Shown here: one piece after another, positions 24,740-42,969 of the stretch
Layout: each line of letters starts with the position of its first letter
How positions within the stretch are numbered: the stretch's first letter is position 1
Source: a bacterium
GTDB lineage: Bacteria > Bacillota_I > Bacilli_A > RF39 > UBA660
Length of the DNA: 56,229 bases
NCBI GenBank assembly: GCA_029099845.1
Contig: JAQXOT010000020.1
Span: 1 to 56,229 of the forward strand
Direction: 5' to 3'
The notes under the pieces: model-generated
The model's input: the letters and a program-made list of their open reading frames with translations, nothing else
The model's database searches: none
What the model was told of the DNA's origin: nothing
Translations under genes and position numbers: made by a program

Positions 24740-24762
24740 ATTATTACTCCCTTTCTGGCCTT

Positions 24763-24791
24763 ATTATATCACTAACTAATTAAATAGTCAT
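24763..24791 (-). promoter_or_regulatory. Internal promoter before virD4
   Basis: Minus strand: -35 ATGACT (24786-24791), 17-bp spacer, extended -10 TGATATAAT (hexamer 24763-24768). It lies in the 57-base gap upstream of virD4. Confidence 0.6.
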
Positions 24792-24796
24792 ATATT

Positions 24797-25582: not shown

Positions 25583-27811
25583 CTATACTACTTTGTAATA
25601 GACGAATTTGCTGGTATTATACCATGGATAAGTTTTCCATAAATTGGTTGAAGTTGATCCAGGATCTAACATAAATACAGTATCTGATTGAATGCTATCA
25701 ATTGCGACCCAGTGCTCACCAGTATTTCCTTTTACTTCGGCAGCAACATAGTATCCTTGATTTATGAGATTTTTTAAAGTGGCAAGTTTTTCCTCTTTAG
25801 AATAGCCACTAACACTGGTACTACCAGCATATTTAAAGCTTGGGGCAACGGATGAAGCAGCAGCCCAGTTAATGCAGCCAAGGCAAGATCCTGAACCAAA
25901 GCCACCATTAGCATTTAAGGTTTGAACAAAGGTTCCGGGATTTAACTCTACGGTAGTTGGAACATTACTTTTGGCAATTAAGATGGAAACTGAAGTTGCA
26001 GCACAGCCAATATTTTTAATAGTTTTGCCAGAATTTCCTAATTGGATATTTATCCATGGTCCTTCATATTGTTTCCAAGATGTATATGGTCCACTGCTAG
26101 CTTGGTTACAGCTGCTGGTAGCAGCGGTAGTACAAGACATCTTACTAATTCCTGTGGCATTAGATTTATTTTCATTATTGTAAACTTCTAGTAGTATTTG
26201 TTTATAATCATAACCTTCGTTTGCCAAGGATATAAACTTTTTTTGAATGGTGCTATTATATGTAGTATAAATTATGTTGCCTTCTTCGTTTACTAAAACT
26301 TCTCCCATTACTTCTGTTGCAAGCGTACGTAATTTGCTATTGGTTGCTAGGGGTTGCTTTTGCCAAGCTGTTAGTTTATGGCCACTATATATTTGCCCCC
26401 ATTGAGGGTTTTCAGCAGAGCAGCCTAAATCTGGGTGACAGAAACCTTGATCTGCTGTACTATTAGCCATTTGTAAAACCCATTGTTCATCTGATTCTTC
26501 TTGTAGCTTGTGCCAGCCTCCCATATAGTTAGCTCTAGCTAAAGCGAAGTTTCTTGCGACAATTAATTGAGCTTTGATAGCCTCATCTGGTACTGAATCA
26601 CCAATTTCAAAGTAAGTTACTCCCATTACATATTCTTCAAATGGAATTAGGTCCTCACCTTCCATAGCCTTACCATAAGTTCCACCATAATCATGTTCAC
26701 CTACGGTACCAGTTTGCATCAATCTAACTTTTAAATTATTAAATTCTATAGATCTATTTAAGTAAGTATTTCCCTTTGAATTTGGATAATAGAAGCCATC
26801 TATTTGATAAGAACAAGTTCCTAATTCTGGACAAGCATAGTTGGTTACACCTAAGAAACTATAGTAATCTTCAATGTATTTTATAACTCTTTCCGCCATG
26901 CTTTCCCTTTTGGCATCATCATATTTAGGAAATTGTTTTTTGAAAAATGAATTTACAAGATTTTTTTCAAAAACTGCGGCATCATATTCATCGCCTTTGA
27001 ACATAGAAGCTGCTATTTCTCTAATTTTGGCTTTGGTCATATTACGATAAGTAAAGTTATTATTTTCAGAGGCCATGATATGATATACGGCAACAATTTT
27101 TACAGCTTCCACAGTCTTACCTTTTCTTGCGTATTCTAATTTTACATCGTTAATTCTTTCGTAAAAATCTTTAGCTTCTTCGGTAACCGCTCCAAATTCG
27201 GTAAAGCTACCCGTTTCTTCGCCACTTGCATAACTAGCACCTAGGGCATCTTCAAAATCTGCGTATGGGGTTACAACGGAAATAATAATGATTAGAAGAA
27301 AGAGAATTCCAAATAGAAAAATTAAACCAGTAATTGCGACTGTTTTTAATACTACATTGCCTTCTACTTTTCCTTCTACTTCACCTTCACTATCATTATT
27401 GTTGGCACTTCTAGGATTTCTAGCCATGGTATTTTGGTTAGTTTTTTCTTGTGGTGCTTTAGAGCCTTCTTGTTGGAAAGCATTAGGTTGGGTATTAGCT
27501 GAATTATTGATTCTTGCGGCCTGACCGACTTTATCACCAAGACCACTTTCATTCAAATCGTTTAGAGCATCTTGTAGGGCCTGTCCTCCAGGCACCCTAC
27601 TCGTTGCTTTATCTAAAATATCCCCTAATTTTTCAGAGGATTTACCATCAGTTAGCTTGTCAGCTGCTTTTACTGCCCCACCAGCAGCAGCGGCATAAGG
27701 GTTTTTGGTAGCAATAGCAACATCAGCAGCATTTCTAATATTTTGAGTATTATTTTCACGATTGCGTTCTTTACTTGTTGGTTCATCATTACGCTTTGCT
27801 TGATAGGCCAT
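25583..27811 (-). CDS. SpoIID-type transglycosylase fused to C39-like peptidase (VirB1-like)
   Basis: A 742-residue protein. Residues 1-150 are a charged cytoplasmic region, 155-181 a membrane helix, and the rest is external. About 385-540 is a SpoIID/LytB-type lytic transglycosylase domain with PFEEYVMGVTYFEIGDSVP and the expected catalytic Glu402, followed by IKAQLIVARNFAL. About 575-742 is a C39-like papain-fold domain: Cys603 in IGCAATS, His700 in GEHWVAID and Asp716 in MLDPGS. Cell-wall hydrolases of this sort (VirB1, Tn916 Orf14/CwlT types) open peptidoglycan for secretion channels. Combining a SpoIID domain with C39 in this role is unusual. Confidence 0.85.
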   Translation of the reverse strand: MAYQAKRNDEPTSKERNRENNTQNIRNAADVAIATKNPYAAAAGGAVKAADKLTDGKSSEKLGDILDKATSRVPGGQALQDALNDLNESGLGDKVGQAARINNSANTQPNAFQQEGSKAPQEKTNQNTMARNPRSANNNDSEGEVEGKVEGNVVLKTVAITGLIFLFGILFLLIIIISVVTPYADFEDALGASYASGEETGSFTEFGAVTEEAKDFYERINDVKLEYARKGKTVEAVKIVAVYHIMASENNNFTYRNMTKAKIREIAASMFKGDEYDAAVFEKNLVNSFFKKQFPKYDDAKRESMAERVIKYIEDYYSFLGVTNYACPELGTCSYQIDGFYYPNSKGNTYLNRSIEFNNLKVRLMQTGTVGEHDYGGTYGKAMEGEDLIPFEEYVMGVTYFEIGDSVPDEAIKAQLIVARNFALARANYMGGWHKLQEESDEQWVLQMANSTADQGFCHPDLGCSAENPQWGQIYSGHKLTAWQKQPLATNSKLRTLATEVMGEVLVNEEGNIIYTTYNSTIQKKFISLANEGYDYKQILLEVYNNENKSNATGISKMSCTTAATSSCNQASSGPYTSWKQYEGPWINIQLGNSGKTIKNIGCAATSVSILIAKSNVPTTVELNPGTFVQTLNANGGFGSGSCLGCINWAAASSVAPSFKYAGSTSVSGYSKEEKLATLKNLINQGYYVAAEVKGNTGEHWVAIDSIQSDTVFMLDPGSTSTNLWKTYPWYNTSKFVYYKVV

Positions 27812-27840: not shown

Positions 27841-29631
27841 TTATAGTCCACCGCCACTACCGAAAGATTCTAATTCTTCTTTAGTAACAGTAACATTTAT
27901 TCGCATTCTTCGGTTACCACAAACAAATAAGGCTTCACCTTGAGAATAGCGTTTAATGCTTTCTTTTTCATTATCATTTAAGTCTATTAGGTGACTTAAA
28001 TCTTCTACAGCTTGTTTTTTCAAGCCCATTACCAAGTAGTATGAAGCATTATCAAAAATAGCTTTTCCTTGAGTTATTACGGCTGGGTCTGAAAAGTCAC
28101 TAGGCTGTTGAGTAATTATAATTGTACCGGTATTATATTTACGAGCTCGACGTTGAACTTGAGCAAGGAAGTCTGCACCTTGACTATTTTTATCTCCTAA
28201 TAATACGTGAGCTTCATCTACCATTAAAATAGTGTCAACATTATAATCTAGACATAAACCCCAAGCATATTTTAAAACGTTAAAGAATAGAGCATTCTTA
28301 ATAGTACTATCACTATTCATTAATTCCTTAATGTTAAAAACCATGAAATCACTATCACGTCTTAGTGTAGTATGTCCATCGAAGTAAAATTTTAATTCTT
28401 TAGTAAGTGGACGAACCTTTAGTTCTAGTCTCTCTAGGATGTCCCTTTCTTGAGTGGCATCAGTTATAGACATAAGTTTCCCTTTTATAGTTGCATAAAC
28501 ATCACTGAATGTTGGATAATCGGCAGAAGTAAAATGAGAAAAATCGGTGTTAAAATCAATACCAAATCTTTTATAGGTGTCTTGAACTATTTCACTAAAC
28601 ATAGTTAGTACATCTTCTGTAATTGATGGATCATAATATTTCATAAAAGCTTTTAAGAATTGTAAAGTTCTTGTTAAAACAGTGTAGCCTAAACCTTGTT
28701 TTATTTCTTCTTCATCAGCATCAATAACAATTTCTAATGGATTAATAAGACCAAATTGACCACCTTTTCCAATATCAATGGTATCACCACCAAAGGCTTT
28801 AGTTATCTCACGGAACTCATCTTCTGGGTCAATAATAACAATTTGACAGCCATTACGAATGTGATTACGTAATAATAACTTAGCCGCTGTTGATTTTCCA
28901 GAACCAGAAGTACCAAGAATAATCATATTGGCATTATTACGATTGTTTTCTTTTTTTATCTTATATAAAAATTGATTGAATAAAATTACTCCACCAGAGA
29001 AATCAACGCCTAGTAAAGTTGCTGGTCCTGGGTCCTTTATACTATCAAAAATGAAAGGATACATAGCAGCTATGGTAACAGATGGAATTGGGGTACCAAT
29101 ACGCTGTTCAATATCTTGTGATGGGAAGATTGGTAAAATTGATTTTAATACCTTTTCTTGTTCAAAGCGTAAGGAAATTGCTCTTAAATCCATCGCATCT
29201 AAATAGTTTTTTACATTGACTTTTTTTAGTTCTAGTCCTTCTTTAGTTGGAGAGGTAATCATGATGTGCATTTGAAAATCAAAAATACGTGCTTGACTAG
29301 CAGCTAGCATAGAAACAAAGTATTCTAAGCTTTCAGCATCTTGACGATAACCTTCTCTTCGCGTTAAATCTTTTTCATTTTGATATTTTTCTCTTAAATC
29401 AGCCACTTGCTTGTTTAGCATTTTGGACATTTGAGAAAATGGAACTGGAATATGTTTAATAACTACTTTAATGCCAGCCATGCTTGTTAGTGATGATAAA
29501 TATCCAGGTTGGATATATTTTGGATAAGAAATTACGGTTAAGATAGTTGCATAATTATCACTAATCATAAAATCACTTGGATTAAAATGTAGCCCCTTTG
29601 GAGCTAATTGACTTCTTATACCAGTACTCAT
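27841..29631 (-). CDS. virB4: VirB4-type secretion ATPase, C-terminal part
   Basis: A 596-residue AAA+ ATPase: Walker A GTSGSGKST (about 240-248), IIDPEDEF shortly after, Walker B ILMVDEAHVLL (about 467-477) and the IITQQPSDF motif. This is the energy-supplying ATPase of type IV secretion. The ATG lies within ATGA of the preceding gene, which supplies the N-terminal part that VirB4 proteins normally have in one chain. The frame is intact on both sides, so this is a split gene and not an obvious sequencing frameshift. Together the two proteins total 777 residues, normal for VirB4. Confidence 0.92.
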   Translation of the reverse strand: MSTGIRSQLAPKGLHFNPSDFMISDNYATILTVISYPKYIQPGYLSSLTSMAGIKVVIKHIPVPFSQMSKMLNKQVADLREKYQNEKDLTRREGYRQDAESLEYFVSMLAASQARIFDFQMHIMITSPTKEGLELKKVNVKNYLDAMDLRAISLRFEQEKVLKSILPIFPSQDIEQRIGTPIPSVTIAAMYPFIFDSIKDPGPATLLGVDFSGGVILFNQFLYKIKKENNRNNANMIILGTSGSGKSTAAKLLLRNHIRNGCQIVIIDPEDEFREITKAFGGDTIDIGKGGQFGLINPLEIVIDADEEEIKQGLGYTVLTRTLQFLKAFMKYYDPSITEDVLTMFSEIVQDTYKRFGIDFNTDFSHFTSADYPTFSDVYATIKGKLMSITDATQERDILERLELKVRPLTKELKFYFDGHTTLRRDSDFMVFNIKELMNSDSTIKNALFFNVLKYAWGLCLDYNVDTILMVDEAHVLLGDKNSQGADFLAQVQRRARKYNTGTIIITQQPSDFSDPAVITQGKAIFDNASYYLVMGLKKQAVEDLSHLIDLNDNEKESIKRYSQGEALFVCGNRRMRINVTVTKEELESFGSGGGL

Positions 29632-30173
29632 ACAGGCATCACCATCCCAAATTCTGTATTTTGTCCACCATTTAAGAAATTTTCTAAAATAACTCTTAAA
29701 TCAGCATTATTAACTTTGGATGCATTAAGTCCACAGTCAGCTAGACCATTAATCATCATACGAATACGTTTTTCCAGTATATCCGGATTTTTATCTTTAA
29801 ATAAGATATAGTATTCAGTATCAACTACATTATTTTTAATAAACATATTTGCTTTTCTAATGTCTTGCATTATCAATTTACGAATAGCGGCATTAGGAGC
29901 ATCATTATATAGTAATTGCAATTCGGCTTGATATACGGAAATATCTACTGGTCGATCAGCAACAACTAGCCAGAACTCAAAGTCTAACATATTGTAAAAG
30001 TTCTTTAAACTAATCAAGATATTGTCTTGAGTATTAGCATCTAAAATAAAAATATTTCTTGGAGTTATTTTGACTCCGGTAACTTTTTGGTTTGATGTTG
30101 TGTAAATCATACCATTTTGAATACCTTTAATTGGTAACCAGTCTTCTGTATAACCACTTACTTTTTTAGCCAT
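29628..30173 (-). CDS. VirB4-type protein, N-terminal part (separate gene)
   Basis: A 181-residue protein matching the N-terminal region of VirB4/TraE proteins: SGYTEDWLPIKGIQNGMIYT, a beta-rich core VTGVKITPRNIFILD and a helix pair ending in LNGGQNTEFGMV. It has no Walker motifs. Its stop codon overlaps the start of the ATPase gene (ATGA), so the two are translated together and presumably associate. Its own start lies inside the end of the VirB3/PrgI-like gene (16-base overlap). Confidence 0.82.
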   Translation of the reverse strand: MAKKVSGYTEDWLPIKGIQNGMIYTTSNQKVTGVKITPRNIFILDANTQDNILISLKNFYNMLDFEFWLVVADRPVDISVYQAELQLLYNDAPNAAIRKLIMQDIRKANMFIKNNVVDTEYYILFKDKNPDILEKRIRMMINGLADCGLNASKVNNADLRVILENFLNGGQNTEFGMVMPV

Positions 30174-30469
30174 TCTTTATAGCACCAACCTTTCCATCTA
30201 TATTGTTGTCGAGATGTTAAATATTCATATATTTCAATAATTACTGTTAATGTATTATGATAATTTGGTATTGGGAAAACTAACAAAGCTGAAACAATAC
30301 CAGGAAGTAATACTAGAATTGTTACGCCTAATGATTCAACGGGTAAAAAGGCTAGCATTAAAACACTGGTTAAAACGCCAATACCTAATAGCCATAAATC
30401 AGATGGTTTAAACATTCCTAATATTAATTGCCCATTTTTGGAATTTGCTGGAATTAAATAATTATTCAC
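30158..30469 (-). CDS. VirB3/PrgI-like inner membrane protein
   Basis: A 103-residue protein with two adjacent membrane helices (about residues 25-45 and 48-66) and a C-terminal basic, Trp/Tyr-rich segment ending RQQYRWKGWCYKEW. Size, topology and position immediately upstream of virB4 match the VirB3/PrgI/TcpE group, which docks VirB4 to the membrane. It overlaps the next gene. Confidence 0.8.
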   Translation of the reverse strand: MNNYLIPANSKNGQLILGMFKPSDLWLLGIGVLTSVLMLAFLPVESLGVTILVLLPGIVSALLVFPIPNYHNTLTVIIEIYEYLTSRQQYRWKGWCYKEWLKK

Positions 30470-30513: not shown

Positions 30514-32388
30514 CTATGGTGTTGGTGGCGTTGGTGGTGGCGGCGTTTGTTGTGCTGGTGGTGTTTGTTGTGCTGGCGGCGTTTGTTGTGCTGGCGGCGT
30601 TTGTTGTGCTGGCGGCGTTTGTTGTGCTGGCGGCGTTTGTTGTGCTGGTGGTGTTTGTTGTGTTGGCGGTGTTTGCTGTGTTGGTGGCGTTGCTGTTCTT
30701 CTTTTTGCACCATATCTTACACCAATACCACGACCAGCTTGTGGATCGTAGCCAGTTGCTTCATTTTGATATAACCACTTATTAGCGTCTAATTGAGCTT
30801 CTTTAGCCTTTGCACCAGATAGTTTCTTTGGAGCAACTTTTTTAAGCCCTGGTTTGTTCCACCACATATCTTCATTGTCTTTTATCTTTCTTTCGGCTTC
30901 CGAACCAGCATAATTAGCGTGGAATCTTTCGCTACCTATATCTAAGGCTCTACTATAATATTCTTCTTCTAGATCACTTCTATATTTTTCTTTTATACCT
31001 TTTACGGCACCATCTCTAGTTTTAGCAAATAATCCTTTTCCGCCTTCTTTATCACCAAAATTAGTTTTGGCAACTTCTGCCCTTGCACTATCCAATGAAT
31101 CTCTAAAGCCCGTTCCAGCGGAAAGATTAGCAGCCATAGATGTTAGTGCTGTTATACCAACACTTCCTGCACCTTTGGAACCGAAAAGACTCTTAATATA
31201 ATTTGGTGCTTGTTTGGCAAATAGAAGTAAGCCAATAATAATAAAAACAAAAGCAAAAGCATTAACTAGGAAAGAACTTGTTTGGAATTTAAGTGAACTG
31301 AAAATACCGTTAGATAGAATATTTTGAATTAGGAATAAAACGAAATATATTATAGCTAGACGTATAAATAATTCTATGTAGGTTGAAACTAATGATTGTA
31401 CCCACAAGCTAAAACTATCTCCGCCTTTTCCTTCTTTAGCACTAATATTCATATGACTAATTATTGGTATTGGGGCAATAATTCTTAATATAATTAATTT
31501 AAACACCCTAATAGCAACATCAATTGAATATGAAATTAAGACAAAATCAATTACAATTCCAACAACCGTACTAGCCAATGGAAGGTAAGAAAAAGCATAA
31601 TACTCTTTTCCTAGAAAAGATTGAACGGCCTCGTTTAAAAATGAACTAACTGTTGTACCATTTTCAGCTCTGCCACAGCCTAAATTTACTAGTGATAATA
31701 TTAACTGTGGTTCTGCATCAGAGTCATTATAAATTTTAAGTAAATCGCTATCAATATTTTTACAAACCCGGTTTGCATTTATTGTTTCGGGATCTTTTCC
31801 TGCCGGCGGTTCTTCTTGTAAAGTTGGCAAGACATTTATTCTAACAAAAGTTTTTAGAATGGTTGAGGAAAAAGTTTTTCCAACACTATATATTTGATTG
31901 CCGGTAGTAGAGTCCGAAGATGTATCAGTTCTTCCAACGATTATTCGCCCAATAGTATTATTGGCAAGCACCCTATTTTGAAGTGAAAATAATGAGCCAA
32001 ATAAAATTCCGTTGTCATTTACAGATTTTTCCCATTCATTTGAGGGATTCGGGATATCAAAAGGTGCTATCAAAACAAGCATAATTAAGGAAACAATGAT
32101 TCTTGTTACAATTTTTCCCATCCCTTGTTTTTTGTCATAAACGGTATCGGGGTTTACTATTCCTTGAAGAATTGAAATCGCTAATTTAAAGACCATAAAT
32201 ACGCCCAATATTAATTGAACACGGCCATAGATATCTCTTATGAGATCTCCACCCAGCATATCAAAAGATGCAACCGCAAAAAAGATTTCATATAAAATTG
32301 ACATTAATAAATAGACCACTCTATCTATGGTAGCAAAAATGGTACGTATTATATCATTTATAGTATTTTTGGCCATGAAATCAGTCAT
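30514..32388 (-). CDS. VirB6/TrbL-like polytopic channel protein with QQTPPA repeat tail
   Basis: A 624-residue protein with six or more hydrophobic segments in residues 20-430: for example YLLMSILYEIFFAVASFDML, IIVSLIMLVLIAPFD, IVIDFVLISYS, LIILRIIAPIPIIS, IYFVLFLIQNIL and FVFIIIGLLLFAKQAP. This is the architecture of VirB6/TrbL, the core channel subunit. A charged cytoplasmic region (about 430-560) follows, then a tail of eight QQTPP(A/T) hexapeptides. The tail is encoded by an 18-bp tandem repeat and is probably an extended, unfolded arm. It is followed by the VirB3-like gene 44 bases downstream. Confidence 0.88.
   Translation of the reverse strand: MTDFMAKNTINDIIRTIFATIDRVVYLLMSILYEIFFAVASFDMLGGDLIRDIYGRVQLILGVFMVFKLAISILQGIVNPDTVYDKKQGMGKIVTRIIVSLIMLVLIAPFDIPNPSNEWEKSVNDNGILFGSLFSLQNRVLANNTIGRIIVGRTDTSSDSTTGNQIYSVGKTFSSTILKTFVRINVLPTLQEEPPAGKDPETINANRVCKNIDSDLLKIYNDSDAEPQLILSLVNLGCGRAENGTTVSSFLNEAVQSFLGKEYYAFSYLPLASTVVGIVIDFVLISYSIDVAIRVFKLIILRIIAPIPIISHMNISAKEGKGGDSFSLWVQSLVSTYIELFIRLAIIYFVLFLIQNILSNGIFSSLKFQTSSFLVNAFAFVFIIIGLLLFAKQAPNYIKSLFGSKGAGSVGITALTSMAANLSAGTGFRDSLDSARAEVAKTNFGDKEGGKGLFAKTRDGAVKGIKEKYRSDLEEEYYSRALDIGSERFHANYAGSEAERKIKDNEDMWWNKPGLKKVAPKKLSGAKAKEAQLDANKWLYQNEATGYDPQAGRGIGVRYGAKRRTATPPTQQTPPTQQTPPAQQTPPAQQTPPAQQTPPAQQTPPAQQTPPAQQTPPPPTPPTP
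30542..30685. repeat. Eight tandem copies of an 18-bp unit
   Basis: On the plus strand the unit reads GGCGTTTGTTGTGCTGGC with a few substitutions (GGC/GGT, TGC/TGT). Eight copies in register encode QQTPPA/T on the minus strand. Copies three to five are identical, suggesting recent slippage. Being a multiple of three, gain or loss of units keeps the frame. Confidence 0.93.
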
Positions 32389-32402: not shown

Positions 32403-32867
32403 TTACTTTACACAGGTATCACTTGACGTGAAACCTAAAACATTTAACATAACACTAACTAGTGTTGGTAAAACAAACAAGACAGCTGCAAGAACTAGTC
32501 TTGTGATTAGTCTTTTATGAGCTTTGGCAAGAGATTCATCATTTGATGATAATAAGGCAGTAATATAGTCTAAACTGCTTAATACTAAGACTAAAATTGG
32601 TCCTAGAACTCTTATATAATTTAGGGCTTTTTGTAATAGCCAAGCAACGGAGTCTTCATCATTAACATTACCTAACATTGAAGTTTCGCCACTACAATCC
32701 ATGATTTGAACAAAAGAATTTATATTGGAAATATTTATTTTATTAGTAATTTCTACTGATTTGGTGTCAGTATAATTAATATTTTTTTCTTTAGCAGAAA
32801 CATTTACCGTATTAAAAAGAAAAATACTAACTATTAATAAGACATAAATTAGTGCCTTGTTTTTCAT
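32403..32867 (-). CDS. VirB2/TrbC-like pilin-type protein b
   Basis: A 154-residue protein with a signal peptide (residues 1-25, ending VSA-KE), a short linker with a Cys pair partner (MDCSG...DTCVK), and two membrane helices (about 85-108 and 123-143) separated by a positively charged loop. That loop, SSNDESLAKAHKRLITRL, is shared with protein a (SSDDKEIKAATSRLIKRI). VirB2/TrbC subunits have this double-helix layout and polymerise into the pilus or line the channel. It starts a new transcript segment with its own -10 element and precedes virB6. Confidence 0.78.
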   Translation of the reverse strand: MKNKALIYVLLIVSIFLFNTVNVSAKEKNINYTDTKSVEITNKINISNINSFVQIMDCSGETSMLGNVNDEDSVAWLLQKALNYIRVLGPILVLVLSSLDYITALLSSNDESLAKAHKRLITRLVLAAVLFVLPTLVSVMLNVLGFTSSDTCVK

Positions 32868-32893: not shown

Positions 32894-32911
32894 TATTAAG
32901 TATAGCAAAAT

Positions 32912-32940
32912 AAAAAAAAAATAGCAATTGTTTGCTATTT
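32912..32940 (-). terminator. Terminator within the island, after VirB2-like a
   Basis: A 9-bp perfect stem AAATAGCAA (32919-32927) / TTGCTATTT (32932-32940) with a four-base loop, followed on the minus strand by about nine T. The stem includes the stop codon of VirB2-like a. Confidence 0.82.
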
Positions 32941-33294
32941 ATTTACGATATATACACTGTTCCAGCAACTAGCCCAACTTGTGGTATCTGTTTCACTTGG
33001 ATCTGCTCCAAGAGCTACAAGATTCATTACTAATGAAACGATACTTGGTACTAAGAAAATTACAACAGCATATATTATACGCTTAATTAATCTTGATGTT
33101 GCAGCTTTTATCTCTTTATCATCACTAGAAATAACGGCTTTACCTAAATCAATTATACCAAATATTAATAAAGCAATTGGGATAATAATGAATACATATT
33201 TCAATACTCCCTTAATAATTCTTACTAATGGTTCTAATCCTTGACAAGCTCCTCCACTTGCTCCACCTATACCAATTTGAAATAAACTTGACAT
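32935..33294 (-). CDS. VirB2-like protein a, candidate major pilin
   Basis: A 119-residue protein with a Gly/Ala-rich N-terminus (GIGGASGGACQG), two membrane helices (about 32-53 and 70-90) separated by SSDDKEIKAATSRLIKRI, and a hydrophilic tail with one more cysteine (WASCWNS) that could pair with Cys17. It is paralogous to protein b but lacks a signal peptide. It is framed by a near-consensus promoter and a strong terminator, so it should be made in large excess over its neighbours, as expected for a major structural subunit. GGAGAGG precedes the ATG. Confidence 0.8.
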   Translation of the reverse strand: MSSLFQIGIGGASGGACQGLEPLVRIIKGVLKYVFIIIPIALLIFGIIDLGKAVISSDDKEIKAATSRLIKRIIYAVVIFLVPSIVSLVMNLVALGADPSETDTTSWASCWNSVYIVNK

Positions 33295-33318
33295 AATTAC
33301 CTCTCCTTTGCTAAAAAT

Positions 33319-33347
33319 ATAATATCTTATATCACTTTTTTTGTCAA
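33319..33347 (-). promoter_or_regulatory. Strong promoter of VirB2-like a
   Basis: Minus strand: perfect -35 TTGACA (33342-33347), 17-bp spacer, -10 TATTAT (33319-33324). It lies entirely in the gap after the TadZ-like gene. Confidence 0.8.
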
Positions 33348-33350
33348 TTA

Positions 33351-34376
33351 TTACCTTCTAAATAAACCAAATACTTTATTGGGATTTTCTTTTGTTTCCA
33401 TTTCAACTAATCCTGCTTTTAATATGAAATTATACATAGCCTCGTTTCTTTTTCGATCATCAAGAGGTGGCATATTATAAAAGACTGTTGTTCTAGCTTC
33501 ATATTCAAAATCTGCAATATCTTTATCGGTTAGTAAGCTTTTATTTAGAATTATTTTTCGTCCTCGTAGCTTTTCAAAAACATTGCTACTTCTTCTTATT
33601 AACCTATTTAGTTTAATAATACTTGGTTCTAATAAATAGTAAATATCACTACAAATACTTTCATCAGGAAAATCGTTTAAATCAACTAAAATTATTTTAT
33701 AGTTAATTGCTCGTCGTAATATAGCCCTTACGTCTTCCTTAGTAGCGACAATCATTTCTTTATCACTGAAAACGTTAAAATCGTTTTTATCTATTTCAAT
33801 AGCAAGAACACTATTTTTACCTAATATAGCCGTTAATTCATTTTTTAGCATATATATAAAAGTTGTTGAGCCGGCTTGTTTAGTTAAATTCCTTATACCA
33901 ATTATTTTAGGGCCTACACTAGCAGGTACTTTTTCTGGTTCTTTTTGTTTTGGAATTTCAAACTTTGGCTGTTCTTTAACGGGATCAGAGGCACTGGATA
34001 ATGATAAAATATGTTCAACATCTTTTAACGTATTAGAGTGTTTTGTTAAATACTTTACTCCATCTAAATTAGTTGTAAAATTATATATACCAATATTTAT
34101 TAGACCAGATAAGAAATTTGCGGTACATAGACTAGTATTTTCTGGTAAATAAAAGATTATTTTTTCAGCGTCTAAACCACTAATAAGTTCTTTATAACTT
34201 GCTATATTATCATAATTTTTTAATGCGGTAACATCGAGGATCATTTTATTAAAAAAGAAAGTTTTAAACATTTCAATTAAAACCGAAGCTTCAAAAGCAC
34301 CGGTGATATTTTTAATAATATCTATGTCTAATTTTGATAATTCGGTTTGTTGTTCATTTGCTACTATTACATTCAT
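33351..34376 (-). CDS. TadZ/CpaE-like protein with degenerate P-loop
   Basis: A 341-residue protein. Residues 1-120 look like a receiver-like or ARD domain; residues 155-330 have the layout of a MinD/ParA-type ATPase (IIGIRNLTKQAGSTTFIYML, VLAIEID, YKIILVDLNDF). The deviant Walker A lysines are lost (KQAGSTT in place of KGGxGKT), so nucleotide hydrolysis is doubtful. TadZ proteins position Tad pili at the cell membrane and several family members are atypical ATPases. The ATG at 34376 follows GGTGA and is chosen over the GTG three codons earlier. Confidence 0.72.
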   Translation of the reverse strand: MNVIVANEQQTELSKLDIDIIKNITGAFEASVLIEMFKTFFFNKMILDVTALKNYDNIASYKELISGLDAEKIIFYLPENTSLCTANFLSGLINIGIYNFTTNLDGVKYLTKHSNTLKDVEHILSLSSASDPVKEQPKFEIPKQKEPEKVPASVGPKIIGIRNLTKQAGSTTFIYMLKNELTAILGKNSVLAIEIDKNDFNVFSDKEMIVATKEDVRAILRRAINYKIILVDLNDFPDESICSDIYYLLEPSIIKLNRLIRRSSNVFEKLRGRKIILNKSLLTDKDIADFEYEARTTVFYNMPPLDDRKRNEAMYNFILKAGLVEMETKENPNKVFGLFRR

Positions 34377-34381
34377 TTTAA

Positions 34382-34858
34382 TCACCCGACATTTTTACTT
34401 GGTTTAAATACTTTGGTTGTCCCAGTTACTTGAAACATTTTCAAATTAGGCATTATTCTATTTATGATTGGTATATCGATATATATTACAGTTACTACTT
34501 GATAATAAACTTTTCCTTCGTTGTTTTCTAAAACTATGGCAGGATCAGTATTATTTTCAGCATTTATTTCTTTTATACAGTATCCAGCATTTTGGGGGCA
34601 TATATAACCTTGATCTTGGAGATTTATTGTTTGAGGTACAGAATAGCCAATTGATTTCATATAATCAGTAATAGCTTTAGAACAAGCACCTTGATCGGTA
34701 TTACAGTTTCCCTCATACTGTTCAATAGCACTAATGATTTTGTTTTTTACACGGAAGGCTTTTGTATAGTTAACGTTGAAGGCTAAATAACCACTAACGA
34801 TTACTAAAAAGACAATTATAATAACTATATTTACTAATCCTCCAAGCGCATCACGCAT
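34382..34858 (-). CDS. TadE-like pseudopilin / minor pilin candidate
   Basis: A 158-residue protein with a short N-terminal tail (MRDALGGLVN), one membrane helix (about residues 10-28) and an external domain with four cysteines (GNCNTDQGAC and YICPQNAGYC), ending IPIINRIMPNLKMFQVTGTTKVF. The layout is that of TadE-type minor pilins. Its start, MRDALGGLVNIVI, resembles that of the small Flp-like protein encoded just upstream (KEATGELNLTVI). Five bases separate it from the tadZ-like gene. Confidence 0.7.
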   Translation of the reverse strand: MRDALGGLVNIVIIIVFLVIVSGYLAFNVNYTKAFRVKNKIISAIEQYEGNCNTDQGACSKAITDYMKSIGYSVPQTINLQDQGYICPQNAGYCIKEINAENNTDPAIVLENNEGKVYYQVVTVIYIDIPIINRIMPNLKMFQVTGTTKVFKPSKNVG

Positions 34859-35111: not shown

Positions 35112-35921
35112 TTACATCGTAAACATTACCATCATTGATATTAAAATAATTAACATAACACCAAGACCAGTAATGACTAGCATTATCATTGTTTGATTTT
35201 CCATATAATTTAGACGTTCTTTATATTTGGTCTCACGGGCTTTATGTTGAAGATTGGAAACTGTTTTTGAAAACATTAACAATCTTTCCTGTTTTTTATC
35301 TTGTGCACCAAGTCCTAAACGATATAACAAACGCATCATTCGCATGGAATCTCTTACTGGATAAGTATTGGCAAATTCCATATATGGGTCAATAGTTGAA
35401 TCTCCAGCATTTATTCTATCGATTAGTTTTCTTAAGCCTGGTTTAAAAATATCTGGAGCGTCATTAATAGATTTACCTAAAGCAACTGGCACTGTATAGT
35501 GTTGAATTAAAATCTCTAAACTCTTTAAATAGTATGGCAACATGATGTCAATTTCATGCAAATGAGCTTTATAAAACTTTTTCAATTGCATATAAGGCAT
35601 TTTAAATATTAAGACGGCAATAACAGCTGATAAAACTAAATTTAAGAAGAATTGGGAATTAAAAAGGCTTCCTGTTGAGTTACTACTAATGGTAAATCCT
35701 AATACCAAAAAGAAAGTTATAATGGCATAGAGTGCTCTTTTAATATATAATTGATCGGCATCGGCATCTTCGCCATATTTAGCATATACTAAGAAAGTAT
35801 AATCTTCTTCTCTAAATACTTGTAAATATTTTTCATTATCTATTAGGAACTTTTTCTTATCAATAGTATTATTGTAGAAAAATATTCCTAATATTATTGC
35901 TCCAACGACTAATGCTTCCAT
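35112..35921 (-). CDS. TadC-type (GspF-fold) pilus assembly membrane protein
   Basis: A 269-residue protein with membrane segments near residues 3-15, 64-82, 88-107 and 245-268 and a cytoplasmic helical domain between (SLEILIQHYTVPVALGKSI, LYRLGLGAQDKKQERLLMF). This is the layout of the T2SSF/TadC platform proteins that work with the CpaF ATPase in Tad pilus assembly. It starts two bases after the stop of the TadB-type gene. Confidence 0.78.
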   Translation of the reverse strand: MEALVVGAIILGIFFYNNTIDKKKFLIDNEKYLQVFREEDYTFLVYAKYGEDADADQLYIKRALYAIITFFLVLGFTISSNSTGSLFNSQFFLNLVLSAVIAVLIFKMPYMQLKKFYKAHLHEIDIMLPYYLKSLEILIQHYTVPVALGKSINDAPDIFKPGLRKLIDRINAGDSTIDPYMEFANTYPVRDSMRMMRLLYRLGLGAQDKKQERLLMFSKTVSNLQHKARETKYKERLNYMENQTMIMLVITGLGVMLIILISMMVMFTM

Positions 35922-35923
35922 TA

Positions 35924-36829
35924 TTATTCAGCTCCTACATTCTCATTATAATATTTTTCTCCTTTTAATAGGAAATATGAATTAATTATCAAAATACCAT
36001 GTAATAGTACTTTTACATACCAGCGATCTAGAAGGATTAAATATGTCTCTCTTCCTAATAAGTATTGTACAAGCATAACCATTAAGTACAACATAATACC
36101 AAATTGAATAAACGACTTATGGAATGAGGCTCTTTCCATTCTATCTCGATAGACACTTTCAACTAACATATCAATATCTAATTGCATATTGTCCAATGAA
36201 TCAGCGGAGTTTCTGGCTCCTTCTTTTGTGATTTGTAAAAACAACTGATGCATATTCTTAACAATATAGAATGGGTAAATTTTCGTCATATAATCTATTG
36301 ACTCATCAATACTACCATTTTGATAGGCTAATTCAATCATGTAATCTACATCTTTTTTTACAGGATCTTCTAAAATTCCAGAATTTCGTACTCCCTCAAG
36401 TGCTTTTACGAATGATTGCGTAGTAGCAAATTCCATAATTACGTTTGAGGTATACACTTGAATTTGTTCAAAAATAAATTCACTATATATTCTTTTGCAT
36501 CTTAAGTATGATAAGTATGGAACAAACATAACAGCGATGCAGACATAAACGATACAAATTATTAGGTTATAGAAATATAAATAAGTAACTACTCCAGTAA
36601 AAATTGATATAATAGCAACTTGAGTAGCATATTGTTTTGGAGTATATTCTTGACCTAATTCTTTAGTTTTTTCTCGTACTATTTTAAATGAATAGGGAGC
36701 AAATTTATCATATATTGCCTCAACTTGTTCGGTAATAAATTTATTGACATTTTGACCTTTATATTGTCTATAAGCAAAGACTAAAAAAGCAATAATTAAA
36801 ATAATAATTAATTCTTCGAAACCATACAT
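35924..36829 (-). CDS. TadB-type pilus assembly membrane protein
   Basis: A 301-residue protein with an N-terminal membrane helix (residues 5-20), two close helices at about 71-105, a cytoplasmic helical domain containing ATTQSFVKALEGVRNSGIL and YPFYIVKNMHQLFLQITKEG, and two C-terminal helices (about 242-292). This is a GspF/TadB-like platform protein, the partner of the adjacent TadC-type protein. It lies directly downstream of the cpaF ATPase gene. Confidence 0.8.
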   Translation of the reverse strand: MYGFEELIIILIIAFLVFAYRQYKGQNVNKFITEQVEAIYDKFAPYSFKIVREKTKELGQEYTPKQYATQVAIISIFTGVVTYLYFYNLIICIVYVCIAVMFVPYLSYLRCKRIYSEFIFEQIQVYTSNVIMEFATTQSFVKALEGVRNSGILEDPVKKDVDYMIELAYQNGSIDESIDYMTKIYPFYIVKNMHQLFLQITKEGARNSADSLDNMQLDIDMLVESVYRDRMERASFHKSFIQFGIMLYLMVMLVQYLLGRETYLILLDRWYVKVLLHGILIINSYFLLKGEKYYNENVGAE

Positions 36830-36846
36830 ATTATCACTCCTTTCAT

Positions 36847-38535
36847 TTAAGCTATAGATTGATTATTATTGGCTTGGATTACCGGTAAAACAACACCTGG
36901 TTGGCTTTGGGCTACTGGTTGGACTTGAGTTTGTTGAATTGGTACTACCTGTTGCATATTAGTCTGATATATTGGTGGTGTTTGAATTACACTTGGCATT
37001 TGACTAGCTTGAGCAACAGGCGGAATTATTTGATTTGGAACTTGAATTTGTTGATTATTTATCATTTGACCAGGTAGCGGCATTTGTTGCGGTACAACTG
37101 GTACTTCCAATACTGTTTGGTTTGGGACTTGAGGCATAATTACTTCTTGATTATTTGGCGGAAGTGGTGTTTCTTGAACCGTTTCCATAGCTGAAGAAAC
37201 TTGTGGTGCTATATCTGTTAATGGCATGTTGTTATTTACTGTCTCATTTATTTCAGTAGTTTGAGAAACATCTGAAATTTCTCCAGGGGTCATTTGTTCT
37301 TGGTAGATAACATTTTGATTTTCAGCTGGTTCAGTGTAATATGTTTCTGCCTCTTTTGGTTGCTCTTGTGAATATTCTGAACTGTCTTCTCCTACTTCAG
37401 AGGTTGAGGCTTGTGGTCCTGCTTGATATTCACTGTATGTTTCATCAACTTCTTCATTATCACCAAATGGTTCATCATCAATCATTTTATCGCTTATAGC
37501 AGTTATATCGATATTTTGATTTTCTAAGTATTCAATTAAATGCTTACTTGGCTTTCTTAAAATAGGCTCTTTACCAAAGACTTTTTGATAAATTGTTCTA
37601 CTTTGAGGTTGATTATTTTCATCAACATAGAACTCAACTACTTCATCGACTTCACGATGAAATTTACCGCGTTCTTTACTATAATAGGCTCTAATATGAA
37701 CACCTAATTGAATATAACGATATATGGTTGATAAAAATTGATTAACATCTAGATCGGTTTCCATCAAACTATATAGACGATAAGGAATTGCTGATGCTTT
37801 ATCTGCATGAATAGTTGATAAAATGTTGTGTCCTGATGAAATTGAATTTCTAACGGCTGATACAGCTTCAGCACTACGTACTTCAGATAATAAAATCCAT
37901 TTTGGGTTTTGTCGCATACATGTTACTAATACATCAGTGTAGCTGGCAACATTATTTGTTTTCATCGCAACAATGTCTCTTTGTGGAAATATTTTGTCTA
38001 AATGTAGTTCTAGGGTATCCTCAATAGTAATAATTTTTTCATTTACTTTAGTATGACTGGCTAAGTATTTTACAAATTCGGTTTTACCAGAACCAGTTTC
38101 TCCAGAAACAATTATATTACAGTGACCTTCAACACATTTAATTAAAATATCATGAATATCTTGAGTAAAATAATCCTCACTAATTAATTTTTCTTTTTCT
38201 AGACGAATTTTGGCTGGGGTTTTACGAATTACCATGGCAATACCATTGGTGGCAATAGATGGATGGACAAAGTTTAGACGTAATTCTGCCGATTCTGCAT
38301 CTAGAAAAGGTTTAGCGTTATTGAATGTTGTTCCCATGACATTTGAACACTGAAAAGCTAACTTTTCAACAAATTCTGGGGTAGCACCACTAACTTCTAC
38401 TCTTAGAGAGCCTTGGGTTAATGAGCGAATCCAAATTTGGCCATTGTTGTCATATGAAATATCGGTAATATCATCATTATCTAATAGGGCTTTAAAAGGC
38501 CCAAAGTCTAATTTATCAAAAATGTTTTCGTTCAT
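36847..38535 (-). CDS. cpaF: CpaF/TadA-type secretion ATPase (VirB11 superfamily) with Q/P-rich tail
   Basis: A 562-residue protein. Residues 1-365 are a type II/IV secretion ATPase: Walker A GETGSGKT (145-152), TIEDTLELHL (Asp box), ILLSEVRSAEAVSAVRNS (Walker B region with conserved E and R) and LSTIHADKAS (His box). It is in the CpaF/TadA branch and is homologous to VirB11, so a single ATPase could serve both halves of the island. Residues 370-562 form an extra Gln/Pro/Glu-rich, disordered tail absent from normal CpaF. The SD is GAGTGGG. Confidence 0.92.
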   Translation of the reverse strand: MNENIFDKLDFGPFKALLDNDDITDISYDNNGQIWIRSLTQGSLRVEVSGATPEFVEKLAFQCSNVMGTTFNNAKPFLDAESAELRLNFVHPSIATNGIAMVIRKTPAKIRLEKEKLISEDYFTQDIHDILIKCVEGHCNIIVSGETGSGKTEFVKYLASHTKVNEKIITIEDTLELHLDKIFPQRDIVAMKTNNVASYTDVLVTCMRQNPKWILLSEVRSAEAVSAVRNSISSGHNILSTIHADKASAIPYRLYSLMETDLDVNQFLSTIYRYIQLGVHIRAYYSKERGKFHREVDEVVEFYVDENNQPQSRTIYQKVFGKEPILRKPSKHLIEYLENQNIDITAISDKMIDDEPFGDNEEVDETYSEYQAGPQASTSEVGEDSSEYSQEQPKEAETYYTEPAENQNVIYQEQMTPGEISDVSQTTEINETVNNNMPLTDIAPQVSSAMETVQETPLPPNNQEVIMPQVPNQTVLEVPVVPQQMPLPGQMINNQQIQVPNQIIPPVAQASQMPSVIQTPPIYQTNMQQVVPIQQTQVQPVAQSQPGVVLPVIQANNNQSIA

Positions 38536-38582: not shown

Positions 38583-39389
38583 TTAACTTTCTGTCCAAAT
38601 AGTAACTTTATTAATCCAGTCTTTTAAGCTTTCACTACTAATAGCAACCTCACCTGGTTCGTCGCTTAAGCTTTCGTTAGTTGGTACAGGGATTAGTGTT
38701 GTATCATAGTTTCTTAAATATTCAGCTTTCTTTAGTAAGATATAGTATTCTTCTGGAACTGCAAAGACAATCATGGCTGGCGCTCTTTGTTCGTCTAGAT
38801 TAGCAAATACTGGTTGACCACTAGCATCTTTTACAGCTAGTACTTTAACATTGGTAACTAGTTTACCTAACATGATACGATCAGCTTCTGCTTTGGATGT
38901 AACGCCTTCTTCGTATTTACTTACAGCTTTTAAATATATATCAATATAGTTTTCAGGATAAATTGAATTACCATATGTTGTTGCAGTAGTAACACTCATA
39001 TTGTACAAAACATATCCTTTTGGAACATTTAAAATTATGTTATCTGGTAATTGTTCTCTTTCAACAACTACACTTTTGAAAAAATAACTACCGGCAGGAA
39101 TCACAGTATCAGATCTAACATATTGATCTAATACTTGATTACTATTTTGAATAATGTCTCCCTTAATCATAGTTTTAGGAATTTGACATGACATTATTTT
39201 ATCTTCAGTAATTTTTGTACCACCATTGATGGCTTCTTTAGCACAAGGGACAGTTATTGGATTAATGGCTTGTTTTACACGAACATTATACCCAATAATT
39301 AGTACTAATATTGCGGCTACTACACCAAGCAATGTTACAGTATTTTTGTCTTGTAGAATTCGTTTAATTCCATTACTTTTGTTTCCCAT
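38583..39389 (-). CDS. cpaB: CpaB-like SAF-domain pilus protein
   Basis: A 268-residue protein with an N-terminal membrane helix (about 17-37), then a SAF domain (about 45-115) containing CAKEAINGGTKITEDKIMSC and VIPAGSYFFKSVVV, and a CpaB-like C-terminal domain (LNVPKGYVLYNMSV, YIDIYLKAV). CpaB proteins belong to Flp/Tad pilus assembly and bind the cell envelope. It precedes cpaF, as in many Tad loci. Confidence 0.82.
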   Translation of the reverse strand: MGNKSNGIKRILQDKNTVTLLGVVAAILVLIIGYNVRVKQAINPITVPCAKEAINGGTKITEDKIMSCQIPKTMIKGDIIQNSNQVLDQYVRSDTVIPAGSYFFKSVVVEREQLPDNIILNVPKGYVLYNMSVTTATTYGNSIYPENYIDIYLKAVSKYEEGVTSKAEADRIMLGKLVTNVKVLAVKDASGQPVFANLDEQRAPAMIVFAVPEEYYILLKKAEYLRNYDTTLIPVPTNESLSDEPGEVAISSESLKDWINKVTIWTES

Positions 39390-39406
39390 TTTATTCCTCT
39401 CCTTCT

Positions 39407-39892
39407 TTAATTTTTATAATAATAGTTGTCTTCAACAACTGGGTAACCAATTTCACTAGTATAATCAGTATTTGCTTCTGTTACATATGAGTCTTCTTCT
39501 CTTGTACTTTCAACAATTCCATCATAAGTTGTTGTCATTAATAGATTCTGACTATCAAAACTTAGAACAGTTGCAGAGTCAACTTTAATACTAACTTTTG
39601 GAGGGACTTCATTTAAATCATAAAATCCGATACGGTAGCTTCTAGTGTTATCTACACTATCAGCAAATCTTCTTAAAAAGCTTTCAACAAATTTATCTTT
39701 ATCAATTCTAAGCGCATAGTTGTCGCGATAGTACTTTACGTCTATCGCGTCTTCCATGGCTGCTTCGGCAGTTTCTTTAACTAGGTAGTAGTCTAATTCA
39801 CTACCTGTTGAATAATTAGAAATTACATTAATTAATAATAAACCCATTATTGCTAGTAAAATGATACCGACTGTTAACATTCCTTTATTCAT
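39407..39892 (-). CDS. Membrane-anchored pseudopilin-like protein
   Basis: A 161-residue protein with a very short N-terminal tail, one membrane helix (about 5-23) and an external domain opening SELDYYLVKETAEAAMEDAID and ending in an acidic, Tyr-rich tail (DNYYYKN). The pattern resembles TadE/TadF or other minor pilins. The stop of the 1025-residue gene overlaps its start by one base, so translation is coupled. Exact family not recognised. Confidence 0.7.
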   Translation of the reverse strand: MNKGMLTVGIILLAIMGLLLINVISNYSTGSELDYYLVKETAEAAMEDAIDVKYYRDNYALRIDKDKFVESFLRRFADSVDNTRSYRIGFYDLNEVPPKVSIKVDSATVLSFDSQNLLMTTTYDGIVESTREEDSYVTEANTDYTSEIGYPVVEDNYYYKN

Positions 39893-42800
39893 TATTTATT
39901 ACCTCCTGAGATATAACTTAAGTAATCTTCACTGCTTCTTAAATTAGCGGTATATGTATTTGTAAATGTTTCAGCACGACCACTGGCATCTTGGTTATTT
40001 ACACCTAAAACACCAAGTTTTCTAGCATCTATTTTATTGCTTGTCTTTGCATTGCTAACATTTCTAAATAAGGCACTGGCATAATAAGCAATACCATTTT
40101 CTACTCTAATTTCTCCTAAGAATTTATTATAATTATTTCCAGCATCTTTAGAGTATGCCCTAATCTTGCTAAGATCTGATGGTGATAAATAGAATTCATA
40201 ATCTAGATAATTTTCAGTTTTGTCAGCATCATAAATTTCATCGGCACGAGCTTGAATTACAGAATATAGGGCTCCTGGAGTTACTTCATAGTCTTTATTT
40301 TTAATATTAGTTGCTTCATCTGTCCAGTTATATCCTGGTGTACGCCCAGTTTCTTCTGGATTAGTTGTTGCAGTTTCATCTTGATTATTTGGGAACATGT
40401 CACCTAAATCAACAGTTCTTAGATTGTATGATAGTGGTGCTGTTTCTTCTTCTTTGTCATCATCATCATTTGGAATTGGTGAATCGTATAAGGCATAGAA
40501 ACATTTAATTTTGAAATCCCATGAGAAATGACCAAAGTTCTTAGTCATAGCTTCAATATTATATTCATCTATTGTAGCTTGACTTGTTACATTTTCTTTA
40601 GGTTTTAGAACTCGTTGTGTCCACCAGCTTGTATTAACATATCTAGAATCTAAGTTAGTACAGAATTTTTCTTTCTTTAAATGCCATGTATTATTATCAC
40701 TGTTTGGTTGATAACTTATCTTACCTGTCTTATTATTTATCCATGTACCTGGGAAACTCCATTCTGTCATATAATTACTAGTTGTACTGTCTTCAAATTG
40801 ATCTACGCTTTGATAACAACCACTACGATCTAAGACGATACTCGTACTACCAAGACCGTTACTACCATTTTTTGTAGTAATTGTTGTACCTGATAGATTA
40901 CCATTAGTTATAGAAGTTGAGTATTCAATCCAATTATCTTTTGATTCACTATTTAATTTGTTATTTACTTTGATGGTGTATTCTGCAGTTTTAGTTGAAC
41001 AAGTAGCTTTGGCTTTACAGTCAGCGGCTGCAGCTTTATAAATATCGAATTCTAATTTATAAACTTCTATAGCATCTGCACTATTTAAGAATTGACGATT
41101 AGTAGCTTCTGTAGCCTTACCATTTTTATAATAACCATTACTTTTTGCCTTTGTGCAGCCATACCATGCACATCCAGCAGTACAATAGCTAGTTCCAGCA
41201 TTATTTCTTAAAAGACCATTAGCAGCACCTGTATCAATTAGACTTATTCCACATTGCTTCTTTCCACCAATCATAAAGCTATCATTACATCTTTCGGCAT
41301 CTTGAAGTCGAGAAAGTGTATAATTAGTAATATTTAAAGTGTAATATCTTCCTGGACGTTCCCAGTATCTTTTTTCTCCACTATTCCAAACAATATTACC
41401 ACTTTGAACATCATAGTAGCCTGTTCCAATTTCTGTTAAGGCTGTTTTTAATTCTTCGGCACTATAAGTTTTACCAGGTCCGATAGCATCTGGTCCACTT
41501 GTAATGACATTTTTATAGTAATTATATAATTCTGCTTGATTTTTCTCTAAACTCTCTATATTAGCAGAATTATATTTATAATCTTTTGGCCTATTAATTT
41601 GTTTTGCGGTTGCACCATCAACATAGTTTACTGGTAAAGTTGTAGTTGTCGTTGTTGTAGACCCATAAACTTCGGTATAACATTTATTAATACAGCTTTG
41701 TGTATATTCCCCATTATCGCAAGAATTAATACAAGAATCAAAATCATCGTTTGGACCAGATGCTGAGTGGTATGTTCCACCGTTACATGCACCAGTTGGT
41801 GTACAAATTTCATAGTCTTCTGGTTGGGGTATTTCTGCCGTAAATTTAGATTCACAATTTACCTTACTTTCCACTTTTACTTTATATTCAAAGCAAAGAC
41901 CGGCTTTTGATGCAACGGGTGGTCCGTAAGTAACTGTTATAGTTTCTTCACAGGTTTGTGAACATACTCCATCATCTTTATCAGCGCCTGTTGTTTTATA
42001 CAAATTTAAAGTTGTGTTTTTTGTTTCTGATTTATAGTATTTCTGAGTTGTATAAGATTGATTTGGTATAGTTAGTCCATTAGTTGATGAATATGCAGGA
42101 CATTGTAGAGCTTTGTCGTTAGAGGTAAAATCTGTATCCTCGACAACAGTAGCGTCCCCTGGTCCAGAAAGTGCGGTTTGCTTATTATAATCATCACTAA
42201 TTTTTATACCAGCAATTTTATTTTTGATAATTTGTGCAGTTTCTCTAACGCTATAGTTATATTCTACTCTTTGAGTATAACAATATGGAAAGTTAACTCT
42301 GGTTCTGTAGGCGTTAAAGTCTGTATCAGTTAAACCTGCAGCTTCAAAAACAGTGCTATAAGCAGCATAGTTGCCATTTCTTAAAGCGCTACATATTCCA
42401 TTATAATTTAGGTTGTTAATTTGTGTCTTATTTGGTTTACTAGGAACGCCAAGATAATAGTAATATATATAGCCATATTTATCGCTGGTTGTCCAAGTAC
42501 CATCTTGATTTTGAACTGGTTTTGTATTCTCTGTTACTGTACAAAGATTATCAGTTTCTTTTAATACAAAGATAATGGCATAGTCTTTTGGCTCATCATA
42601 TAATTGATAAGTGATTCTGCCACTTTTTGCGTTTTTTCCTCCTAAAACAAGATGTTGAAGTGGTTCTTCTTTATGACTAGTTCCATTTATTAATTCATAA
42701 ACGTATACATCAAATACTCCAGATTTTATTTTTGCTTCAACATATCCTTCATCTGGGAAGTGGCTTGGTACATAGACATATGGATGATATTTACTTTCTG

Positions 42801-42969
42801 CTTTAACAAAGTTTGATCCACCTTCTGTACAAGATCCTTTTTTTAATTGAATTAATGGTTCTTCTAAATCTAGGGCTTGTGTGTCAGTAATTAGATTATT
42901 TTTACTTATAGCAAAAACACCTATTATTAACAGAAAAATTCCAAACAATTTTCTACGCTTGTTTTTCAT
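39892..42969 (-). CDS. Large cysteine-rich secreted protein, possible pilus tip adhesin
   Basis: A 1025-residue protein with an N-terminal signal or anchor helix (residues about 8-25), no other membrane segment and no sorting signal at the C-terminus. It contains roughly 28 cysteines, dense around residues 370-435 (CTPTGACNGG, CINSCDNG, CINKCYTEVYG) and a Thr run (TTTTTTLPV). Many Tyr/Asn/Thr residues suggest beta-rich exposed domains. The frame is intact and is the largest of the island. Position between the sortase and pilus genes suggests an adhesin or tip protein; no homologue is recognised by eye. Confidence 0.75.
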   Translation of the reverse strand: MKNKRRKLFGIFLLIIGVFAISKNNLITDTQALDLEEPLIQLKKGSCTEGGSNFVKAESKYHPYVYVPSHFPDEGYVEAKIKSGVFDVYVYELINGTSHKEEPLQHLVLGGKNAKSGRITYQLYDEPKDYAIIFVLKETDNLCTVTENTKPVQNQDGTWTTSDKYGYIYYYYLGVPSKPNKTQINNLNYNGICSALRNGNYAAYSTVFEAAGLTDTDFNAYRTRVNFPYCYTQRVEYNYSVRETAQIIKNKIAGIKISDDYNKQTALSGPGDATVVEDTDFTSNDKALQCPAYSSTNGLTIPNQSYTTQKYYKSETKNTTLNLYKTTGADKDDGVCSQTCEETITVTYGPPVASKAGLCFEYKVKVESKVNCESKFTAEIPQPEDYEICTPTGACNGGTYHSASGPNDDFDSCINSCDNGEYTQSCINKCYTEVYGSTTTTTTTLPVNYVDGATAKQINRPKDYKYNSANIESLEKNQAELYNYYKNVITSGPDAIGPGKTYSAEELKTALTEIGTGYYDVQSGNIVWNSGEKRYWERPGRYYTLNITNYTLSRLQDAERCNDSFMIGGKKQCGISLIDTGAANGLLRNNAGTSYCTAGCAWYGCTKAKSNGYYKNGKATEATNRQFLNSADAIEVYKLEFDIYKAAAADCKAKATCSTKTAEYTIKVNNKLNSESKDNWIEYSTSITNGNLSGTTITTKNGSNGLGSTSIVLDRSGCYQSVDQFEDSTTSNYMTEWSFPGTWINNKTGKISYQPNSDNNTWHLKKEKFCTNLDSRYVNTSWWTQRVLKPKENVTSQATIDEYNIEAMTKNFGHFSWDFKIKCFYALYDSPIPNDDDDKEEETAPLSYNLRTVDLGDMFPNNQDETATTNPEETGRTPGYNWTDEATNIKNKDYEVTPGALYSVIQARADEIYDADKTENYLDYEFYLSPSDLSKIRAYSKDAGNNYNKFLGEIRVENGIAYYASALFRNVSNAKTSNKIDARKLGVLGVNNQDASGRAETFTNTYTANLRSSEDYLSYISGGNK

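Follow-up and report, generated by a model that had tools for sequence, protein, structure and literature searches.

The window, which is the whole stretch of 56,229 nucleotides that was analysed, belongs to a 1.14 Mb draft genome of 30% GC and carries on its minus strand a cluster in which a Tad-like block meets a block of VirB6/B3/B4/VirD4 type. The gene for a small VirB2-like protein, here called pilA, lies at the junction of the two. In the direction of transcription, the features are:

38583..43759, minus strand: RcpC/CpaB-like protein (PF16976, below cut-off), DUF5411 protein (PF17424, above), 1025-aa secreted-looking protein and sortase (PF04203, above)
35112..38535, minus strand: TadC-/TadB-position membrane proteins and TadA/VirB11-type ATPase (PF00437, 3e-28)
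34382..34858, minus strand: pilin-like or TadE-like small protein, from sequence and position only (no Pfam match)
33351..34385, minus strand: CpaE-position gene, adjoining the 5' side of pilA with no terminator before P1; named by position (no Pfam match)
33319..33347, minus strand: promoter P1, TTGACA-17-TATTAT (TTGACA 33347-33342, TATTAT 33324-33319; 11/12 consensus bases)
33300..33309, minus strand: ribosome binding site AAAGGAGAGG, from sequence
33294-32935, minus strand: pilA, 119-aa VirB2-like pilin of 119 codons (PF18895, alignment, AlphaFold)
32919..32940, minus strand: terminator hairpin AAATAGCAA-ACAA-TTGCTATTT, 9 bp, loop of 4, -7.0 kcal/mol, containing the TAG stop
32912..32921, minus strand: terminator T tract of ten T, also in the P2 spacer, from sequence
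32899..32927, minus strand: promoter P2, TTGCTA (3' hairpin arm)-17-TATACT with extended -10 TGC, from sequence and conservation
32403..32867, minus strand: pilB, second VirB2-like pilin, first gene behind P2 (pilA profile match)
30514..32388, minus strand: VirB6-like polytopic membrane protein (NF045890 3.5e-9, NF045848 1e-8, both below cut-off)
30158..30469, minus strand: VirB3/PrgI-position membrane protein, from position, size and conserved synteny (no family match above cut-off)
27841..30173, minus strand: VirB4 ATPase in two ORFs, 29628-30173 and 27841-29631 (NF045975 1e-14 and 2e-106, both below cut-off)
25583..27811, minus strand: SpoIID-domain cell wall protein in a VirB1-like position (PF08486 2.5e-8)
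22352..24739, minus strand: VirD4-like coupling protein (NF045973, 301 bits vs cut-off 250)

Within the Tad set the T2SSE ATPase scored above cut-off and RcpC below, while TadB and TadC were assigned by position only; the ATPase also matched the models for VirB11 (TIGR02788, 1.5e-33) and TadA (TIGR03819, 2e-30), both below cut-off. VirB4 and VirD4 are both present, the latter with its model above cut-off and the former with models that are strong by E-value but below cut-off. The split of VirB4 into two ORFs recurs, with both halves present in the relatives examined, and the C-terminus of the VirB6-like protein (window 30514-30713) is proline-rich with PAQQTPP-type repeats. Relatives share the gene order RcpC/CpaB-like, TadA, TadB, TadC, small pilin-like and CpaE-position on the Tad side, continuing with pilA, pilB, VirB6-like, VirB3-like, VirB4 in two parts, SpoIID protein and VirD4, several of these names being given by position alone. 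The cluster is flanked by housekeeping genes (a GreA-like ORF, trigger factor and Lon) and no plasmid record matched pilA; it therefore looks, from its sequence context, like a chromosomal fixture. No relaxase was found among the ORFs scanned near the cluster, a subset of those in the window, and these bacteria are not known to have a relaxase or a pilus.

The pilA product matched the Pfam family T4SS_pilin (PF18895) with 31.9 bits (cut-off 26.6; E 1.4e-7) and the Mbov_0395 pilin-like family NF045849 with 23.0 bits (cut-off 40; E 5e-5), and gave no match to TrbC/VirB2 (PF04956) at E<=0.1. An AlphaFold model of moderate confidence (pLDDT 77, pTM 0.55) places long helices at residues 21-56 and 59-95, followed by a short third helix, so that the two-helix VirB2-like layout read from the letters by the first-pass annotation is borne out by family and model alike. 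The charged turn between the helices (SSDDKEIK..LIKR) is conserved in the family alignment, which has ten invariant columns, including Cys110, and a nearly invariant Cys17; because the turn is positively charged, the positive-inside rule suggests that both ends of the protein and both cysteines face outward. No signal-peptide-like N-terminus was visible on inspection of the 39 aligned sequences. Searches of solved structures with the model (Foldseek and VIA-align) returned generic helical matches only, and no relative came up among PDB sequences in a profile search; this is not evidence against a pilin. A pilA-type match was present in 175 of 193 sampled genomes of an animal-gut family of Bacilli; in a class-wide sample 36 of 296 genomes matched, all within that family, and identity outside the genus is 37-64%. 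At a distance from the cluster, this genome also encodes a solitary third VirB2-like protein of 105 aa (L003:1435-1752).

The proposed TTGACA-17-TATTAT promoter just before the gene is present at 33347-33319, with a predicted RNA start at about 33312, and shared the top score among the 96 promoter-like sites that a pattern scan gave in 16 kb. Stretches of at most 20 kb surrounding the gene were taken from 40 relatives and 80 named contigs (the named genomes matched were records of uncultured Bacilli, Tenericutes and 'Candidatus Faecimonas', many of them named after gut samples), duplicates were removed, and 107 distinct loci, window included, were scored by fixed rules. P1 keeps 10 or more of the 12 consensus bases in 103 of these loci, which are not independent of one another, and has an exact TTGACA in 97; the control frequency of such promoters at 14 other gene types in the same clusters was 17/1097 (1.5%). 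Other genes with frequent promoters are VirD4 (51 of 66 loci) and pilB (24 of 91). The description of the surroundings as an otherwise continuous gene series is right apart from this VirD4 site, which suggests a third transcription unit. In the window the site lies at 24740-24797 and reads ATGACT-17-TATAAT.

On the upstream side, a terminator separates the CpaE-position gene from pilA in only 3 of 100 relatives, and the median gap of 58 nt is filled by the promoter and ribosome binding site. With no terminator upstream, transcripts from the preceding genes can run through pilA. Judged by these signals pilA is insulated downstream only and is not a sealed unit; of the insulated single-gene unit claimed earlier, the dedicated promoter, the terminator and the closed downstream side stand, but the upstream boundary does not.

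A 9-bp hairpin with a U-tract over the stop codon had also been noted, and it lies at 32940-32919, with TAG inside it and ten T behind. A simple terminator scan missed it because its stem has two G-C pairs only. A hairpin of -4 kcal/mol or lower with a T tract follows the pilA stop in 104 of the 107 loci, compared with 59 of 1234 (4.8%) other gene ends in the same clusters and, in the first set of 41 loci, 9 of 205 block-shuffled 3' ends. Two loci (L050 and L051) have no clear 3' signal, possibly since another paralogue was picked there, and were kept in the counts. Overlap with the stop codon is not general, the hairpin lying further downstream in most relatives. In many loci the stem at this place is of unrelated sequence and hairpin and T tract are still present; it is therefore a terminator that is kept, and not a motif.

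A second promoter, missed by the first-pass annotation, is built into this terminator. The composite pattern consists of TTGCTA in the 3' arm, exactly 17 bases that include the T tract, and an extended -10 element of TGN and TATAMT. At 66 of the 103 pilA 3' ends with hairpin and T tract, the 3' arm also supplies the -35 box of P2, compared with 6 of the 4129 other hairpin and T tract sites of these loci, three of them with the same AATAGCAA/TTGCTATT-type stem. The entire genome contains three matches to a looser pattern, TTGNNNTTTTTTN8TGNTATANT. It is documented that RNA polymerase can reinitiate when it remains on the DNA once termination has taken place (PMC6978380). By analogy, one may speculate that polymerase is handed over from the terminator to P2.

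Codon usage was compared with a reference of EF-Tu, EF-G, S7 and S12, chosen because the incomplete genome yielded no ribosomal protein L4. The pilA score ranked first of 46 ORFs in the window, on a par with that of trigger factor and ahead of the GreA-like ORF, which came next; over 96 clusters pilA was first in 39 and among the top three in 65, and its score exceeded that of pilB in 69 of 85. The z-scores against an amino-acid-matched null are modest, with a mean of about +1, and that of VirB4 is similar (+1.14). The high expression of pilA that had been proposed is probably right and gains moderate support from codon bias, which is no proof of it.

The second pilin, pilB, has a signal-peptide-like N-terminus, a short N-terminal part and a C-terminal hairpin; the pilA profile matches it with 4e-15 at residues 76-149, while PF18895 does so only at E=0.075. 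Exactly one further pilin lies between pilA and VirB6 in 86 of 94 loci. These further pilins range from 122 to 567 aa, with a variable N-terminal part and a hairpin that matches the pilA profile and, in most of them, lies at the C-terminus or close to it. In one congeneric genome (L169:378-2866), four similar small secreted-looking genes stand behind the pilA terminator and pilB is on another contig; the four share a GYAALSSTL-type motif and are camelysin/TasA-like by eye.

Taken together, these results suggest that the pilA product is probably the chief building block of the filament or channel in a chromosomal Tad-plus-T4SS hybrid, made in excess by means of its own promoter and terminator. 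P1, a strong sigma-A-type promoter after the CpaE-position gene, would add short pilA mRNAs to read-through from the Tad-like operon, and the intrinsic terminator at the 3' end of pilA would stop P1 transcripts and read-through alike. Its 3' arm and T tract would be reused as the -35 box and spacer of the extended -10 promoter P2, which would separately start the pilB-virB6-virB3-virB4 unit, such that one short DNA element would end the abundant pilin transcript and start a scarcer machine transcript. Dedicated transcription would in this way lift the copy number of pilA above that of the rest of the machine, and pilB, with its variable N-terminal part, would be a lower-copy subunit, perhaps a tip or cap. 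We infer that the signals are active in the cell, and that pilA is abundant and polymerises. The same arrangement in about 100 related bacteria suggests, at the level of sequence, that far more pilA is made than the rest of the machine. That pilA is the main pilin, as first proposed, may well be so; a second VirB2-like pilin directly follows it, and further pilin-like genes, none wired like pilA, belong to the Tad-like part.

A rather unlikely alternative, though the most serious one, is that the wiring does set stoichiometry but pilA is no extracellular pilin, being instead a high-copy membrane channel or scaffold subunit of a monoderm T4SS, and that any surface filament is built from Tad-like proteins (34382-34858 and 39407-39892). 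A prepilin peptidase gene is encoded elsewhere in the genome, the set of TadA/B/C- and RcpC-like genes is full enough to account for a Tad-type filament, and no solved pilus matches the pilA model, all of which fit such a division of labour. The pilin-like genes on the Tad side, however, have no promoter and terminator wiring of the kind expected for a major subunit (promoter in 2 of 94 and terminator in 2 of 95 loci for the small pilin-like protein p158; 2 of 74 and 4 of 78 for the DUF5411 gene), and pilA itself belongs to the T4SS pilin family.

It is very improbable that the hairpin is no terminator but the DNA operator at which a P2 regulator binds. The inverted repeat does overlap the P2 -35 box in 66 of 103 loci, a classic operator position, but every case scored has a T tract behind it and stems of unrelated sequence occupy the same place. 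Moreover, the 66 elements with the arm TTGCTATT have 55 non-Watson-Crick cells in the opposite (5') arm, comprising 39 G-U and 16 mismatches; G-U keeps RNA pairing and breaks DNA symmetry, and changes that favour it fit pairing in the RNA. Chance is a hardly credible explanation for P1 and the hairpin: such signals are not rare by themselves at 30% GC (16 kb contain 96 sites resembling promoters and 9 resembling terminators, with shuffled means of 76 +/- 9 and 7.6 +/- 2.9), so conservation is the test, and they are kept in about 100 genomes versus 1.5-5% at control sites. The operator and chance readings were set aside on the G-U bias, the unrelated stems and conservation across relatives.

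VirB2-type pilins have been reported absent from Gram-positive T4SSs outside Patescibacteria, and VirB11 absent altogether (PMC12857230); the locus therefore departs from described systems, in that a VirB2-like pilin and a VirB11/TadA-type ATPase occur together in a large animal-gut family of Bacilli. The nearest described case is that of the VirB2-like pilin arrays of Patescibacteria (PMC12102498, PMC10633639), which share with the present locus the T4SS_pilin family (PF18895 was used there), a monoderm-type VirB4/B6/B3 set, a chromosomal location, more than one pilin in a row and, among the ORFs scanned here, no relaxase seen beside the cluster. The present locus differs in belonging to Bacilli, in having a joined TadA/B/C-type block and a VirD4 coupling protein, and in having one short and one extended pilin instead of arrays of 2-11, the short one with its own transcription signals. 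The weak profile match of pilA to the Mbov_0395 family (NF045849) recalls mycoplasma ICEs, whose models the VirB4 and VirB6-like neighbours also match; however, those are mobile elements, while this cluster stands among housekeeping genes and the pilA match is below the curated cut-off. Tad/Flp loci share the TadA-, TadB-, TadC-, CpaE-position and RcpC/CpaB-like genes, but here VirB-type genes are joined to them and the subunit wired for abundance is a T4SS-type and not a Flp-type pilin. Our search of the open-licence literature found no description of an RF39-type T4SS or of Tad/T4SS hybrids. As regards regulation, internal terminators set subunit stoichiometry in ABC-importer loci of Clostridia, according to the passages of PMC9045158 drawn on here, and a hairpin after the gene for the high-copy subunit lowers transcription behind it, as may be the case for pilA. 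Those passages describe no second promoter within the terminator, whereas in the present locus a -35 box lies in the 3' arm, and extra subunit transcripts would come from P1. A composite terminator/promoter offers a compact, testable way to fix subunit ratios, and confirmation of the wiring by transcript or proteome data would identify the machine's major subunit, which could then be traced in existing gut metatranscriptomes without culture.

The pilin hairpin is fused to other domains in three genomes (G058, G006 and G040), one of which, G058, has 15 matches to the pilA profile. The fusion loci in relatives are:

L183:755-6436
L184:1469-2473
L185:8227-10347
L186:366-5001
L187:1840-5330

Partner domains above Pfam cut-off are a C39-like peptidase (twice), a GDSL hydrolase, a VanY carboxypeptidase and Big_2. 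Tentatively, and with some doubt, we consider that this family of gut Bacilli might possess a fixed machine of Tad motor and VirB channel that builds a VirB2-type pilus in Gram-positive cells beyond Patescibacteria, with the hairpin as a reusable targeting module and the composite element governing pilin supply. Cell-wall enzymes and Ig-like domains fused to the hairpin would then be delivered by this machine into the envelope or across it. L,D-transpeptidase-like motifs were also seen in pilin-hairpin fusions, by eye only.
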